From: Candidatus Gromoviella agglomerans
GTDB taxonomy: Bacteria; Pseudomonadota; Alphaproteobacteria; CAJXXZ01; G021065005
Direction of reading: 5' to 3'
Length of the DNA: 64,000 nt
NCBI RefSeq assembly: GCF_021065005.1
Contig: NZ_CP069247.1
Coordinates: forward strand, 186,001-250,000
The position numbers and the translations under genes were made by a program. The notes under the pieces are model-generated. The model worked only from the letters and a program-made list of their open reading frames with translations, did no database searches and was not told where the DNA came from. Below, piece after piece: positions 27,388 through 58,059 of the stretch (position 1 is its first letter; every line of letters begins with the position of its first letter).

Positions 27388-27948
27388 TTATTGTAGAGTA
27401 TTTCTATCATGAAAATCTTTTGCAAGGTAATTATGAATTATATCAAGTCCTTTCTTCAAATAATACAGCTCTCTCCTCATAACATCAAATCTAACATCAA
27501 TATTTATTGGCTGATTTTTGACAACTGATTTTTCTATTATAGTATCTATATTTCTATCAATCATTCCAAAAATCGCTCTAATTCTGTAATATTTCTTTAT
27601 AATTCTATCATGTTTTATTGGTATATCTTTGACTCTATATCCTCTAGAATTTGAAATACGACCCAATATACAAGAACTAATTGGAGTAAGACATGTAATA
27701 GCTTGATGAGAAATCTTAAAATATGCACGAGCAGCTTCTAATTGCTCTTGATTTATGTATTTCAGAAGAAATAAATCGTATATATGTGGGCATAAGCCAC
27801 ATTTAGAATGTCGAAGAAAATCTCCTTTGTTGTGATTCAATTTTTGACGAATCCTTGGTCGCCCCCTAGTCTTCTTAAAAGAAGAAGTAAAGTCAGTTTT
27901 TGATTTCCACGCAAATATCATAAAATCCCTATGTGTAATGTATACCAT
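27388..27948 (-). CDS. Hypothetical basic protein with an RGRPR motif
   Basis: 186 residues, strongly basic, no signal peptide. It carries KKTRGRPRIRQK near residue 27 (AT-hook-like, nucleic-acid binding) and a helical segment INQEQLEAARAYFKISHQAI. That segment recalls alphaproteobacterial phage-associated proteins with an 'I-x-x-x-Q-x-x-AA-x-x-Y' helix, but I cannot name the family. Its stop codon lies one base beyond the 3' end of the oppositely oriented tRNA-Thr, which is an unusually tight abutment and might mark an old insertion at the tRNA. No neighbours are cotranscribed. Confidence 0.45.
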   Translation of the reverse strand: MVYITHRDFMIFAWKSKTDFTSSFKKTRGRPRIRQKLNHNKGDFLRHSKCGLCPHIYDLFLLKYINQEQLEAARAYFKISHQAITCLTPISSCILGRISNSRGYRVKDIPIKHDRIIKKYYRIRAIFGMIDRNIDTIIEKSVVKNQPINIDVRFDVMRRELYYLKKGLDIIHNYLAKDFHDRNTLQ

Positions 27949-28310: not shown

Positions 28311-28735
28311 TCATTATTGAGCAGAATCACCTGCGCGACACTCACTCATTATTATGCAGAATCACCTGCGCGACATTCACTCATTATTATGCAGAATCAT
28401 CTGCGCGACATTCACTCATTATTATGCAGAATCACCTGCGCGACACTCACTCATTATTGAGCAGAATCACCTGCGCGACACTCACTCATTATTGAGCAGA
28501 ATCATCTGCGCGACATTCACTCATTATTGAGCAGAATCATCTGCGCGACATTCACTCATTATTGAGCAGAATCATCTGCGCGACATTCACTCATTATTAT
28601 GCAGAATCACCTGCGCGACATTCACTCATTATTGAGCAGAATCATCTGCGCGACATTCACTCATTATTGAGCAGAATCACCTGCGCGACACTCACTCATT
28701 ATTGAGCAGAATCACCTGCGCGACACTCACTCATT
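28311..28735. repeat. 35-bp x12 tandem array (minisatellite)
   Basis: Twelve head-to-tail copies starting every 35 bases from 28321 to 28706; the last is cut after 30 bases, and ten bases of a unit precede the first. Each unit begins GCAGAATCA(C/T)CTGCGCG and continues GACA(C/T)TCACTCATTATT then AT or GA. The only differences are those two C/T sites and the final dinucleotide. The unit is near 48% G+C in AT-rich surroundings. It is not a multiple of three and frames across it break, so it is noncoding. There are no unique spacers, so it is not CRISPR. It lies 35 bases beyond the radC stop codon. Confidence 0.97.
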
Positions 28736-28770: not shown

Positions 28771-30372
28771 TCATAGCAAACCCAACGACTTCATCGATGA
28801 ATGGCCAAATTTTCCTATAATTATGTGATCATGCAATTTTATATCAACAGATTCAAGAGCAATCTTCACTTGTTTTGTTATTTGCACATCTGACATAGAA
28901 GGAGTTGGATCTCCTGTTGGGTGATTATGCACCATAATCACAGCACCAGCATTTATCTCAATTGCTCTTCTAACTACCTCTCTTGGGTATATAGGCATCT
29001 GATCTATAGTTCCACTATTTTGTACTTCATCCGCGATCAAAAAATTCTTTTTGTTGAGAAACAGTATTCGAAATTCTTCTCGAGGTAAACATGCCATAGA
29101 TATCTTGCAGTAATTTATAACTTTCTCGTTATTGCTGAGGATTGGAGTTTTCGCAACTTCTTCTTTTAACACTCTACAAAAAATCTCATGAACGAGCTTT
29201 ATAACAGAAATCGTTGTATCGCCTACATTTTTTATTCTTTTTAGCTGACTCACATCTGCACTTAAAATTCCATTTATAGACTTAAATGTACTAATCATAT
29301 CCTTTGCAATCTTTTTCTGATCTCTTCTGGGCTGAGCAAGAAACATCATCACCTCTACGAGCTCATAATTATGCATTGAACTTATATTTCCATTTAATAT
29401 CTTCTTACGCATTCTGCTTCTATGACCATCTTTATAATAATCTGTATCAGATTCATCTTTATGATCAATTACTACATCTTGCATTGTACTTTTTGCACTC
29501 AGTGGAATTTTTTTCAACTCCTCATGTGAACATTCAAATGAATCTTTATTCTCATCAACCCTCGATGAATATACTTCTGTTTTATGAACTATTTTCAGCA
29601 AATCTTTGCTAGCAGCATCATTTTCACTTGATAAATTCTCTTTATACTTTTGCTGATTATTATCGATGGTACCAAAAAAATCTCTACAATCAGAATTGTT
29701 AAAAACTGCAGAATTTGGATCGATATCAGGTTGAATAATACGGATTATTTGATGTGTTTTTTCTATTCCATCATCAGAACCTTTACGATTCAAATTAGTT
29801 CTCCTCTTAAATAATGATATCTTTTCACTCAAAACATCTCTATCAAAAAGAACCTTAGTTACACTGCATTTTCTGTCTTGGTTATTATATTTTTTATTTA
29901 AATCTTCATCAATTTTACAAAATTTATCGACAAATACATCATCTAGGCATAAATTAGATTCTTCAAGGAAGGAAGTGTGTTTTCTTCTAAAACGATTTTT
30001 GGATGTAACTCGTTGTCTAAAAACAACATCTTTATGATTATTATCAGATGAGTCAAATTTCTTATTAATATCACCTTCAAATGAAGAATCATCTGAATTC
30101 GCAACTAACTGAGCAAAGGTTTTAACATTCTCACAAGAATTTTCTACTTTATCATCAAAATCTTGTAAACTTAAACCAACTTCATCTAGAAGTAATGTAT
30201 GCGGCACTCCAAAAGAATTTAAAGAGCCAGAATCACAATCAATATCATTTGAAGACGTTATAATATCATTTATATTGGCACTGATGGATTTATTTTGATG
30301 TAAAAGATGCTGTTCATCTCGCATTCTGCAATCAACATGCTTTTCATGGATTCTGATCAATTTCTTCTTCAT
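28771..30372 (-). CDS. radC: RadC/MPN-domain protein with a long N-terminal extension
   Basis: 533 residues. Residues about 316-533 are a complete RadC: helix-hairpin-helix region (GHRSRMRKK, LSADVSQLKRIKNVGDTTI) and a JAMM/MPN metalloprotease-like domain with HNHPTGDPTPSMSD (from 482) and HDHIIIG. Residues 1-315 are an Asp/Ser/Asn/Lys-rich, low-complexity segment with repeated acidic patches and no domain I recognise; standard RadC is about 220 aa. RadC homologues are linked to mobile DNA and stress, but their function is unsettled. The extension has no stop or frameshift, so it is likely translated. Confidence 0.85.
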   Translation of the reverse strand: MKKKLIRIHEKHVDCRMRDEQHLLHQNKSISANINDIITSSNDIDCDSGSLNSFGVPHTLLLDEVGLSLQDFDDKVENSCENVKTFAQLVANSDDSSFEGDINKKFDSSDNNHKDVVFRQRVTSKNRFRRKHTSFLEESNLCLDDVFVDKFCKIDEDLNKKYNNQDRKCSVTKVLFDRDVLSEKISLFKRRTNLNRKGSDDGIEKTHQIIRIIQPDIDPNSAVFNNSDCRDFFGTIDNNQQKYKENLSSENDAASKDLLKIVHKTEVYSSRVDENKDSFECSHEELKKIPLSAKSTMQDVVIDHKDESDTDYYKDGHRSRMRKKILNGNISSMHNYELVEVMMFLAQPRRDQKKIAKDMISTFKSINGILSADVSQLKRIKNVGDTTISVIKLVHEIFCRVLKEEVAKTPILSNNEKVINYCKISMACLPREEFRILFLNKKNFLIADEVQNSGTIDQMPIYPREVVRRAIEINAGAVIMVHNHPTGDPTPSMSDVQITKQVKIALESVDIKLHDHIIIGKFGHSSMKSLGLL

Positions 30373-34786: not shown

Positions 34787-35294
34787 ATTTACTCAAAATA
34801 GAAAATTTTGAAAAAAAGTTTTGAAATTATTCAGAATATCAATAAACTACAGAATTACTAACGATTTTCAAAATACTTCAACAATGCAATATATGGCTTA
34901 ACCAAATTATATAAAAGATAAAAAAATAGATATGAAATATTCTCATTTCGAAATTACTGCAAACAATCATACAGATAAAATTAATCTTGTAGTAAATAGT
35001 TGAATTGAGTAGTGCAAAAATATAATAATTACACTAAATCTTAAAAGATCACATAACAGGAAATTCCTATTCCAAATATCAATATCATGATGAATACAAG
35101 AAATATCAATATCATGATGAATACAAGTATTATAATGATAATTCAGGAGTTAATAAAAAAACATTAGCATTTATATAAAGCACCAACTTTTGCAATCGCA
35201 TCACCCACACATAACTCACAACTCGCACCATCAACTGATAAAAGCACCAACTTTTGCAATGGCATCACCCACACATAACTCACAACTCGCACCA
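34787..35294. other. 508-bp spacer holding two sets of tandem repeats
   Basis: Between the convergent comF and fabZ genes. The left half shows nothing; 35074-35127 holds a 27-bp duplication and 35180-35307 holds two extra copies of the fabZ 3' end. Frames across these repeats are by-products. Confidence 0.6.
35074..35127. repeat. 27-bp x2 tandem repeat
   Basis: Two perfect adjacent copies (35074-35100, 35101-35127) with core TATCAATATCATGATGAATA. The inner ATCATGAT is palindromic. Not linked to a gene end. Confidence 0.9.
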
Positions 35295-35328
35295 TCAACT
35301 GATAAAAGCACCAACTTTTGCAATGGCA
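35180..35328. repeat. 64-bp tandem duplication of the fabZ 3' end
   Basis: Units begin at 35180, 35244 and 35308 with GCACCAACTTTTGCAAT. The third start lies inside fabZ (complement of its last codons); after 21 bases it diverges from the other two. The fabZ stop (35295-35297) lies within the second unit. Copies 1 and 2 differ at one base in the core (TCGCA versus TGGCA). Unit length is not a multiple of three. Confidence 0.92.
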
Positions 35329-41743: not shown

Positions 41744-42114
41744 CAATTATTTTGCATCAAGATCAATTCTGTACATTTTACTTGTTCATAAATCATAATT
41801 ATTTGTCCATCATGTAATATCTGAAAGATAAGTGAGCCATTTGGTGGATTAATAAAAATATTTTCCAATTATCAATAGTGCAGGTATATATTAAAAATCA
41901 TATTGTGAATAAGATAATTGAATTTGAAATTACATCTTCGAAAATAAATAAGGTTTATAAATATGAACAAAACTAAGCAGAATAAACACCATCAAAAATG
42001 CCATCAATTGTTGCATCCATAGCGTTTATAAATATGAACAAAACTAAGCAGAATAAACACCATCAAAAATGCCATCAATTGTTGCATCCATAGCGTTTAT
42101 AAATATGAACAAAA
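41744..42114. other. 371-bp spacer, right half made of pdhA tail copies
   Basis: 41744-41952 holds no supportable gene; 41953-42114 is covered by two complete extra copies, and the start of the third copy, of the 71-bp unit that ends pdhA. Confidence 0.6.
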
Positions 42115-42165
42115 CTAAGCAGAATAAACACCATCAAAAATGCCATCAATTGTTGCATCCATAGC
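41953..42165. repeat. 71-bp x3 perfect tandem repeat including the pdhA 3' end
   Basis: Three identical units start at 41953, 42024 and 42095, each beginning GTTTATAAATATGAACAAAA. The third holds the pdhA stop (complement at 42115-42117) and last 16 codons; the first two repeat that tail, stop and 20 downstream bases. A further GTTT at 42166 marks the unit boundary inside the gene. 71 is not a multiple of three. Confidence 0.97.
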
Positions 42166-43152
42166 GTTTCTCGCATCATCGTAAGCGCTTGATATTATTA
42201 CTCGAATGTGCTCTTTCACAAAATCAACAACTTCTGCCCCACAATCGTGTGATAACTCATCTTCTAAGCGCATAAGTGGGTCTATACCTTTCATCTCATT
42301 GACCTCATCCTTTGTTCTATATAAAGCAGGATCTGACATTGAATGTCCTTTATACCTATAAGTTTTCATCTCAACAAGCTGTGGAGTTTGAGTTTTACGT
42401 ACATTTTCTATAATATTCATTAAGGAATTTCTGGCAGTTTTTACATCCATTCTTTCAATTAAAGTACCTTTTATTCCGTAAGGCTCACCTCTTTTAAACA
42501 AATCTCCCGCACAAGCACGCTCGCAGCTAGTTCCCATTCCATATCCATTATTTTCTATTATATAAAGCACAGGTAATTTCCACAAAGCAGCCATGTTGAA
42601 TGCCTCATACACCTGCCCCTGATTACTAGCCCCATCTCCCATAAAAGTCACAGTTATTCCACCATCTTCCTTATATTTGTGAGCAAAAGCAAGACCTGTC
42701 CCAATAGGGACTTGCGCTCCAACTATTCCATGTCCTCCCCAAAATCCTTCTTTTGTGTTAAACAAGTGCATTGATCCACCTTTTCCTTTAGCAGAGCCAG
42801 TAACTTTACCCATAAGTTCACTAAATATAGAGAATGGGGATGCTCCACTTAACAACATATGACCATGACACCTATAAGCTGTGATTACACTATCTTGTGG
42901 CAATAAAACAGACTGAACTGAAGTAGCCACTGCTTCTTGGCCAATGTATAAATGACAAAATCCGCCAATCTCTCTTTTACCATACACCGCGCCACATTTT
43001 TCTTCAAATTTTCTTATGAGATGCATTGCATAGTAAAGACTGATGCTCTCAAGCTGCAAAGAATTAAAATTAGCGTTTAGATTCTTAAGACATTTCTCCA
43101 ACTCAAAAACATTAAATTTATGAAAAGGGCACAAATTCATAATGTTCATCAC
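42115..43152 (-). CDS. pdhA: Pyruvate dehydrogenase E1 component, alpha subunit
   Basis: Thiamine-diphosphate-dependent decarboxylation of pyruvate, with PdhB. Seen: YAMHLIRKFEEKCGAVYGKR, GFCHLYIGQEAV, YRCHGHML, the TPP/Mg motif GDGASNQGQVYEAFNMAALW closing with ENNGYGMGTS, and the phosphorylation-loop-like YRYKGHSMSDPALYR. 345 aa; about 20 extra residues at the N-terminus before the core. The C-terminal codons form part of a 71-bp repeat. It diverges from pdhB over a 124-bp spacer instead of forming the usual pdhA-pdhB operon. Confidence 0.96.
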   Translation of the reverse strand: MMNIMNLCPFHKFNVFELEKCLKNLNANFNSLQLESISLYYAMHLIRKFEEKCGAVYGKREIGGFCHLYIGQEAVATSVQSVLLPQDSVITAYRCHGHMLLSGASPFSIFSELMGKVTGSAKGKGGSMHLFNTKEGFWGGHGIVGAQVPIGTGLAFAHKYKEDGGITVTFMGDGASNQGQVYEAFNMAALWKLPVLYIIENNGYGMGTSCERACAGDLFKRGEPYGIKGTLIERMDVKTARNSLMNIIENVRKTQTPQLVEMKTYRYKGHSMSDPALYRTKDEVNEMKGIDPLMRLEDELSHDCGAEVVDFVKEHIRVIISSAYDDARNAMDATIDGIFDGVYSA

Positions 43153-51751: not shown

Positions 51752-54700
51752 TTATTTTCTTTTTTTATCCTTATTTCCATGATTGTTTTCATGTGGCATC
51801 ATCACCATTCTATATCTACTTTTCGTCTTTTGGGCTTTATTTATAATAATTCCAAAGCGATTATCATCAAGTCTAAACAATCTTAGTGATTGATTTGGCA
51901 AATTAAAACGAAATTTAATGTCTCTCTCAGAATCCTGATTATCTGACTTGAGCAAAGTTATCTCTTCAATTTTATCTGTTTTCAATACAACCGCATAATC
52001 ACTTAAATGTGATGCACTATCGATAAAATTAATAATGTCTATAACGTTATAAGCGCCAGTATTATCAGGAAAAACCTCAACACCCTCATAATACATAGAA
52101 TGATCGTTTTCACAAACATGAGGAATATGATTATTATATTCGTCAGAAATAACATCTACTTTAGATTCTCTTATCTTAAACTCAGGCAAATTTTTTTCAT
52201 TTACAATCTCAGGATTAGCATGAAGATTAACACTCATATAAGGTTGTGAATCAATTTTCTGCTGAGCATTAAACAATTTCCAGTAATTTTTATGAATTTT
52301 TTGTCGTTGATGAGGATCATAATGAATTAAAACATGATCAGAGCATATGTCTTGATGATAGTGATCGCCATCTGATGTTTTCATAGAATTATCAACAAAT
52401 CGAGAATTTATATCAAAATATATCAATTCAGTAACAGATTCAGTCTGCACTTCCTGATCAGACATTTGATGAGGCGACCCAGTCTGCACTTCCTGATTCT
52501 GAGACTCGAATGCCGTTTGCACTTCCTGATTCTGAGACTCGAATGCCGTTTGCACTTCCTGATCAGACATTTGATGAGGTGACCCAGTTTGCACTTCCTG
52601 ATCAGACATTTGATGAGGTGACCCAGTCTGCACTTCCTGATTCTGAGACTCGAATGCCGTTTGCACTTCCTGATTCTGAGACTCGAATGCCGTTTGCACT
52701 TCCTGATTCTGAGACTCGAATGCCGTTTGCACTTCCTGATTCTGAGACTCGAATGCCGTTTGCACTTCCTGATTCTGAGACTCGAATGCCGTTTGCACTT
52801 CCTGATTCTGAGACTCGAATGCCGTTTGCACTCCCTGATTCTGAGACTCGAATGCCGTTTGCACTTCTTTCGCAAGCATTTGAGGAGATACCTGAATCTC
52901 AACACCCTTAATAGATGTATCTGCAGTCTGAGTATCTCTCTCTATAAACGTTTTAGATTTCAGAGCATCAAATTCCTTTCTTAATAGATTTAACTGATTA
53001 TGCAAAATTTCTTTTTGATGAGTCGTATCTATCAAAGCATCATGTAGCTGTAGATTCTCTGTTTTTTGCACCCTCAGAGCCGCTAACTGCTGCTCGTGCT
53101 GCTGCCTCAGAGCCGCCAGCTGCTGATCTTTCTCAGCCACCTGCTGCTCGTGCTTCTGCTTCAGAGCCACCAACTGCTGCTCGTTATCGGCCACCTGCTG
53201 CCTCAGAGCCACCACCTGCTGCTCGTGCTGCTGCCTCAGAGCCGCCAGCTGCTGATCTTTCTCAGCCACCTGCTGCTCGTTATCGGCCAGCTGCTGCCTC
53301 AGAGCCACCACCTGCTGATCTTTCTCAGCCACCTGCTGCTCGTGCTGCTTCCGCAAATCCGCCAGCTCCCGATCTTTCTCAGCCACCTGCTGCCTCAAAT
53401 CCGCTAACTCCCGATCTTTCTCAGCCACCTGCTGCCTCAAATCCACCACCTGCTGCTCGTTATCGGCCACCTGCTGCCTCAGAGCCACCACCTGCTGCTC
53501 GTGCTGCTGCCTCAGAGCCACCACCTGCTGATCTTTCTCAGCCACCTGCTGCTCGTTATCGGCCAGCTGCTGCCTCAGAGCCACCACCTGCTGATCTTTC
53601 TCAGCCACCTGCTGCTCGTGCTGCTTCCGCAAATCCGCCAGCTCCCGATCTTTCTCAGCCACCTGCTGCCTCAAATCCGCTAACTCCCGATCTTTCTCAG
53701 CCACCTGCTGCCTCAAATCCACCACCTGCTGCTCGTGCTGCTGCCTCAGAGCCACCACCTGCTGCTCGTTATCGGCCAGCTTCTGCCTCAAATCCGCCAG
53801 CTGCTGCTCGTTATCGGCCAGCTTCTGCCTCAAATCCGCCAGCTGCTGCTCGTTATCGGCCAGCTTCTGCCTCAGAGCCACCACCTGCTGCTCGTGCTGC
53901 ACCTTCAGAGCCACCACCTGCTGCTCGTTATCGGCCAGCTGCTTCCGCAAATCCGGCAACTGCTGCTCGTTATCGGCCACCTGCTGCTCGTGCTTCTGCT
54001 TCAGAGCCACCAACTGCTGCTCGTTATCGGCCAGCTGCTTCCGCAAATCCGCCAACTGCCGCTCATTATCGGCCACCTGCTGCTTCAGAGCCACCACCTG
54101 CTGCTCGTGCTGCACCTTCAGAGCCACCACCTGCTGCTCGTTATCGGCCAGCTTCTGCCTCAAATCCACCACCTGCTGATCGTTATCGGCCAGCTTCTGC
54201 CTCAAATCCGCCAACTGCTGCTCGTGCTTCTGCTTCAGAGCCACCACCTGCTGCTCGTTATCGGCCAGCTTCTGCCTCAAATCCACCACAGCCTGCGATT
54301 CAGCTAATTGATCTGCTAAACTTTCTACCACATGACCACCTGCTTCATAATCAGAAAAATCTGCATCAAATGAATTTGATGGCAAGTCATCATGTTGCTC
54401 ACGCAGTATCTTATTTTCCCCACGCAATTCATCATTTTCCCCACGCAGTATCTTATTTTCTCCACGCAATATATTATATTGAGCAAGCAATTCCTCATTT
54501 TCACCAAGCAATGTCTTATATTCACTAAGCAATTCCTCATTTTCTCCACGCAATTGATTATTTTCACCACACAATTCCTCATTTTTCCCACGCAATTGAT
54601 TATTTTCCCCACGCAATTGATTATTTTTATCACGCAATTCATTCAAACAAGGACGTACTTCTAATAATTCTGCTTCTAATGCTTCATTCTTTTGTTGAAA

Positions 54701-56889: not shown

Positions 56890-57831
56890 ATGCAAGATAT
56901 ACTTCAAGATGAAGTTATAAAATTATTAACAGACTATGAATCATGGATTTTGCATGAAAAGGCTTACGCAAAAAACACTTTATTCAACTACAAAAATGAC
57001 ATTAAATCACTGTTAATGTTTATGTTTGACAAACAAAAATGCAAAATTTCCTTAAGGGATATAAAGATGACCACTCCATCCTTAATTCGTGAATTTATGA
57101 CCTCAAAAATCATTTGCAAAAACAGCAAAAAACGCACTTTATCATCAATAAAATCACTACATAAATTCATGATTAAAAAAAAAATATTAAGTGAGAGCCA
57201 CATTTTATGCATGGAACAAGGGAAAGGTGAAAAACCAATTCCAAAACCAATCTCATACGAAGAAATCGTTAATATTATTAACAATTCTCCCAACAAACTT
57301 GCTCGCGCAGTATTTTTTTCTCTGTACGCAACGGGATTACGAATATCAGAACTCCTTTCACTGAGATTAACCGATCTCACATGCATGATACAAAAAAGAG
57401 AAATAATAGTAAAAGGAAAAGGAGAGAAAGAAAGATTAGTACCAATTATAAGCAAACAAATAAAACTGATTATAGATTATTTGTCAGAAAAATATAAAAT
57501 TCACGAATCAGAATTCGAAAACTTGATTCAACAAAAATCAAATGAATTCATATTTTCCTCGAAAAGAAATGTGGATAAACCACTGTCAGCGAGGTATATT
57601 CAGATAATCATGAAAACAATCATTGAAAAAAATGGAATACATAAAAGATATACACCTCATAGCTTTCGCCACAGCTTTGCATCTCACATGATTGAAGATG
57701 GAGCTCCCATTCGTCATGTTCAAGAATTGATGGGCCACAAATCCATAAGATCGACTCAAATATACACAAAAATAGATACTAGAAAATTCATTGCAAATCA
57801 TCAAAAATTCCATCCTCGAAATAATAATTGA
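56890..57831 (+). CDS. Tyrosine recombinase, Xer type
   Basis: 313 residues with an N-terminal SAM-like DNA-binding domain and a complete catalytic set: Arg151 (ATGLRISELLSLRL), Lys175 (IVKGKGEKER), His257 and Arg260 (PHSFRHSFASHM), His283 (LMGHKSIRSTQ) and Tyr292 (IYTKID). It ends HQKFHPRNNN, near the usual XerC/D end. XerC/XerD resolve chromosome dimers at dif; which of the two this is cannot be told without comparison. The stop codon arises where a tandem copy of the 3' end begins, so the last codons may have been altered by the duplication. Confidence 0.9.
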   Translation: MQDILQDEVIKLLTDYESWILHEKAYAKNTLFNYKNDIKSLLMFMFDKQKCKISLRDIKMTTPSLIREFMTSKIICKNSKKRTLSSIKSLHKFMIKKKILSESHILCMEQGKGEKPIPKPISYEEIVNIINNSPNKLARAVFFSLYATGLRISELLSLRLTDLTCMIQKREIIVKGKGEKERLVPIISKQIKLIIDYLSEKYKIHESEFENLIQQKSNEFIFSSKRNVDKPLSARYIQIIMKTIIEKNGIHKRYTPHSFRHSFASHMIEDGAPIRHVQELMGHKSIRSTQIYTKIDTRKFIANHQKFHPRNNN

Positions 57832-58059
57832 AGATGGAGCCCGTTGTTCAAGAATTGATGCATCACAAATCCATAAGATCGACTCAAATATACACAAAAA
57901 TAGATACTAGAAAATTCATCAAACCATCAAAAATTCCATCCTCGAAATAATAATTGAAGTGAAGCCCGTTGTTCAAGAATTGATGGGCCACAAATCCATA
58001 AGATCGACTCAAATATACACAAAAATAGATACTAGAAAATTCATTGCAAATCATCAAAA
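57691..58059 (+). pseudogene. Tandem copies of the recombinase 3' end
   Basis: Three repeats: 57691-57826 (inside the gene), 57827-57952 and 57953-58059. Each starts ATTGAAG and includes codons for VQELM-x-HKSIRSTQIYTKID with the catalytic His/Tyr. Copies 2 and 3 share a derived GCCCGTTGTTCAAG where the gene has GCTCCCATTCGTCATGTTCAAG-type sequence, so one was copied from the other. Copy 2 is damaged (MHHKS, then TRKFIKPSK); copy 3 keeps an open frame from a GTG at 57959 to 58156 but lacks the rest of the enzyme. Confidence 0.88.

Follow-up and report, generated by a model that had tools for sequence, protein, structure and literature searches.

The chromosome of Candidatus Gromoviella agglomerans, a Paramecium symbiont of the Holosporaceae, is assembled as one contig of 589,967 bases with a G+C content of 32.2%. 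In the window considered here, a stretch of 64,000 nucleotides spanning chromosomal positions 186001 to 250000, a tandem array with a 35-bp unit occupies positions 28311–28735 (plus strand). TRF reports a period of 35, 12.1 copies, 95% match, zero indels and a score of 724, and a table of the individual units resolves 12 full copies followed by TCATT, in line with the 12 head-to-tail units described in an earlier note on this DNA. The array sits between two minus-strand genes (i.e. a non-convergent arrangement), near the 3' end of radC. That gene (28771–30372, minus strand) codes for 533 amino acids with a C-terminal RadC JAB domain (Pfam PF04002, E 1.7e-39), and the array starts 35 bases past its stop codon, which bears out the previously noted placement behind radC. 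On the far side, 362 bases separate the array from the start of a gene on the same strand as radC (27388–27948, minus strand), which encodes a hypothetical protein of 186 amino acids with no Pfam match. The RadC protein itself carries an N-terminal extension of ~300 amino acids ahead of its conserved part; the main match starts at residue 297–316 in most relatives and at residue 226 in one of them (G001).

The units abut directly, with no spacers between them, as had been stated before; lacking unique spacers, the locus is not a CRISPR array. Variation among the 12 units is confined to columns 9–10 (GA or AT), 20 (C or T) and 31 (C or T), matching the two C/T sites and the AT/GA site recognized earlier. 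Along the array, the haplotypes run GA-CC, AT-CT, AT-TT, AT-CC, GA-CC, three GA-TT, AT-CT, GA-TT and two GA-CC. The linkage that had been reported between the two C/T sites is real: T at the first site is accompanied by T at the second in 5/5 units, while C at the first occurs with C in 5/7 units and with T in 2/7 (Fisher p=0.028, 12 units). This is the pattern expected from stepwise mutation followed by copying. Clustering of like copies, which had also been proposed, is not significant (runs-test p 0.19–0.64 per site and 0.37 for haplotypes), and the adjacent T-T-GA units number three rather than two. The pentamer TCATT that opens the first unit (28311–28315, plus strand) recurs past the last one (28731–28735). 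Each unit also contains an imperfect inverted repeat, which in the first unit (28321–28334, plus strand) reads GCAG-AATCAC-CTGC and folds into a weak hairpin; in the T variants its arms are 5 bp long.

The array is richer in G+C than the surrounding 2 kb (44.5% versus 31.6%), a difference of ~1.4-fold and not the twofold previously given. From this difference it had been concluded that the unit did not arise from its surroundings. A modest excess over the flanks is shared by several other noncoding arrays of the genome, however, so this conclusion does not follow. The claim that the array lacks coding potential holds: stop codons interrupt 6/6 frames and 35 is not divisible by 3. The same length, together with an unconvincing 91 amino acids for the longest open reading frame reaching into the array, argues against a coding repeat.

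The search for the unit in this genome and related ones, which the earlier note had suggested, places it at a single locus. A 33-base core, allowed up to 3 mismatches, has 12 matches in the chromosome, and 12/12 are within the array, which excludes the dispersed element that the note had held out as an alternative. A profile built from the units finds next-best chromosomal matches only at chance level (E at least 1.5). Among 40 related genomes, none of them from the same species or the same GTDB family, we found only matches of chance length (16–24 bp, in five relatives). An exact-pattern search of GTDB genome contigs did not find the unit. It is likewise absent from the viral contigs, plasmids and phages searched, which argues against a plasmid, phage or viral origin.

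Tandem repetition is nevertheless common in this chromosome. TRF identifies 42 non-overlapping arrays with a score of at least 150, and about 14 of these are noncoding, with units of 25–127 bp in 2–12 copies, several of them 100% identical. Examples include 31 bp x12.1, 31 bp x9.6, 37 bp x5.9 (100% identical), 114 bp x3.1 (100%) and 92 bp x3.0 (100%). By eye, the units of these ~14 arrays are mutually unrelated. Those in the window include 35177–35328, 41953–42169 and 57717–58059; several straddle a gene 3' end, and the first overlaps the end of a gene that looks, by eye, like fabZ. Gene calling simply took the longest ORFs, so the figures for placement are approximate. Of the 14 noncoding arrays, 11 lie in convergent intergenic DNA, which makes up 30.5% of all intergenic bases (binomial p=0.0003), and for 13 the nearest gene end is a 3' end (null 55%, p=0.003). 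The same trend is seen in one relative (G002; 627,924 bases), where a 3' end is nearest in 24 of 28 arrays (p=0.002). Another relative (G007; 615,988 bases, with 80,000 left out) has just two such noncoding arrays. Two Holosporaceae genomes, both extremely reduced, thus have their noncoding arrays concentrated past gene 3' ends, mostly between convergent genes. Such a concentration is what one would expect if promoter regions tolerate no expansion.

Near-identical units of ~10–100 bp arranged head to tail, noncoding, at one locus and not dispersed, are among the marks of a minisatellite of the VNTR type, and the array has each of these. We therefore think it highly likely that it is a noncoding minisatellite that was tandemly duplicated, expanded by slippage and/or unequal recombination, and tolerated 3' of radC. 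Of the three readings offered earlier, the junk minisatellite is thus favored by the single locus, the absence of related units and the many similar arrays, and nothing supports either a binding array or a recombination site. A plausible history begins with a 35-bp stretch of the intergenic region 3' of radC, flanked by the direct repeat TCATT, which would have been duplicated in tandem; TCATT may have served as the microhomology that seeded this first duplication. Expansion would then proceed via slipped-strand mispairing and/or RecA-dependent unequal recombination, and point mutations would be passed among copies through the same turnover. The array may persist because DNA past gene 3' ends is free of promoters and tolerates changes in length. 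It is probably neutral, and its copy number probably variable. A protein of the RecA family, as recombination would need, is present in the genome. So are the MutS and MutL families, and hence a mismatch-repair defect does not explain the expansion. The low divergence among copies could in principle reflect selection rather than turnover.

Comparable loci are known. In Wolbachia and Ehrlichia ruminantium, intergenic arrays vary in copy number and slippage has been invoked (PMC3287509, PMC10710844). Wolbachia VNTR-105 and VNTR-141 are likewise intergenic and multi-copy with near-identical periods, but these periods are longer (105 and 141 bp) and strain variation is proven (PMC3287509); the authors of that study suggested hairpins as a trigger of slippage. 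Ehrlichia ruminantium resembles Gromoviella in being an obligate intracellular alphaproteobacterium with a reduced genome and many noncoding tandem arrays. Active expansion and contraction of its intergenic repeats have been observed (Collins et al. 2005, cited in PMC3287509 and PMC10710844), whereas the Gromoviella array is known from one genome.

Other explanations fare less well. The inverted repeats make it conceivable that the array binds a protein, serving in repressor titration or as a nucleoid or partition site, with the imperfect palindrome GCAGAATCAYCTGC present 12 times. The arms of this palindrome measure 4–5 bp in every unit, and the C/T variation at the first site alters only the innermost arm pair. 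Beyond the array, however, the 14-mer has one match with 1 mismatch and all others have 2, and this near-absence elsewhere implies that there is no target regulon. Moreover, a spacing of 35 bp corresponds to a non-integer number of helical turns, and the units of the other arrays are unrelated to the 35-bp unit. The locus, at 214 kb, is mid-replichore and remote from the maximum (29 kb) and minimum (393 kb) of cumulative GC skew, which speaks against such a binding array and also against replication-origin iterons or a terminus element. We consider protein binding improbable.

Transcription of radC would run into the array, 35 bases past the stop codon, and a second possibility is that the array is transcribed into a structured RNA, either as the 3' UTR of radC or as a small RNA, whose repeated hairpins would stabilize the mRNA or block read-through. 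Folding z-scores (–1.5 to –2.0 for a single unit, –2.3 for the whole region) and the preference of the genome's arrays for sites 3' of genes are consistent with such a role. Yet the array matches no Rfam family, and no intrinsic terminator was found between positions 27900 and 28900, where a terminator array would show a G+C-rich stem followed by a T run. Nor do hairpins characterize the genome's other arrays: their units show no enrichment (mean z –0.09), and no general link between arrays and unit hairpins was found. An RNA function thus seems unlikely too. We give similarly little credence to the idea that in extremely reduced genomes of the Holosporaceae the arrays past gene 3' ends, among them the one behind radC, are selected because they insulate convergent genes or stabilize transcript 3' ends, in which case repetition would matter and unit sequence hardly at all. 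Least likely is an assembly artefact, in which copies were miscounted or the expansion is spurious: tandem arrays are described as a known source of assembly errors (PMC6868369), but the units bear a non-periodic mixture of linked variants and the same single-contig chromosome contains many other arrays.

Taken alone, the minisatellite is of little import: it is another locus of the VNTR type and a possible strain-typing marker for the symbiont. The relative with the most arrays, G002, has kept MutS and shows no match to the MutL family domain; this absence may have something to do with its many tandem repeats, a connection for which the sample is too small. In Gromoviella, arrays wholly inside open reading frames have periods that are, in every case, a multiple of three. 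One gene region of the window (52441–54643) contains nested tandem repeats of 21, 33, 42, 96, 117 and 276 bp, each length divisible by 3, with a G+C content that reaches ~60%, versus 32% for the genome. Its product is presumably a repetitive coiled-coil-like protein, and comparable G+C-rich repetitive genes lie at 143–159 kb of the chromosome.
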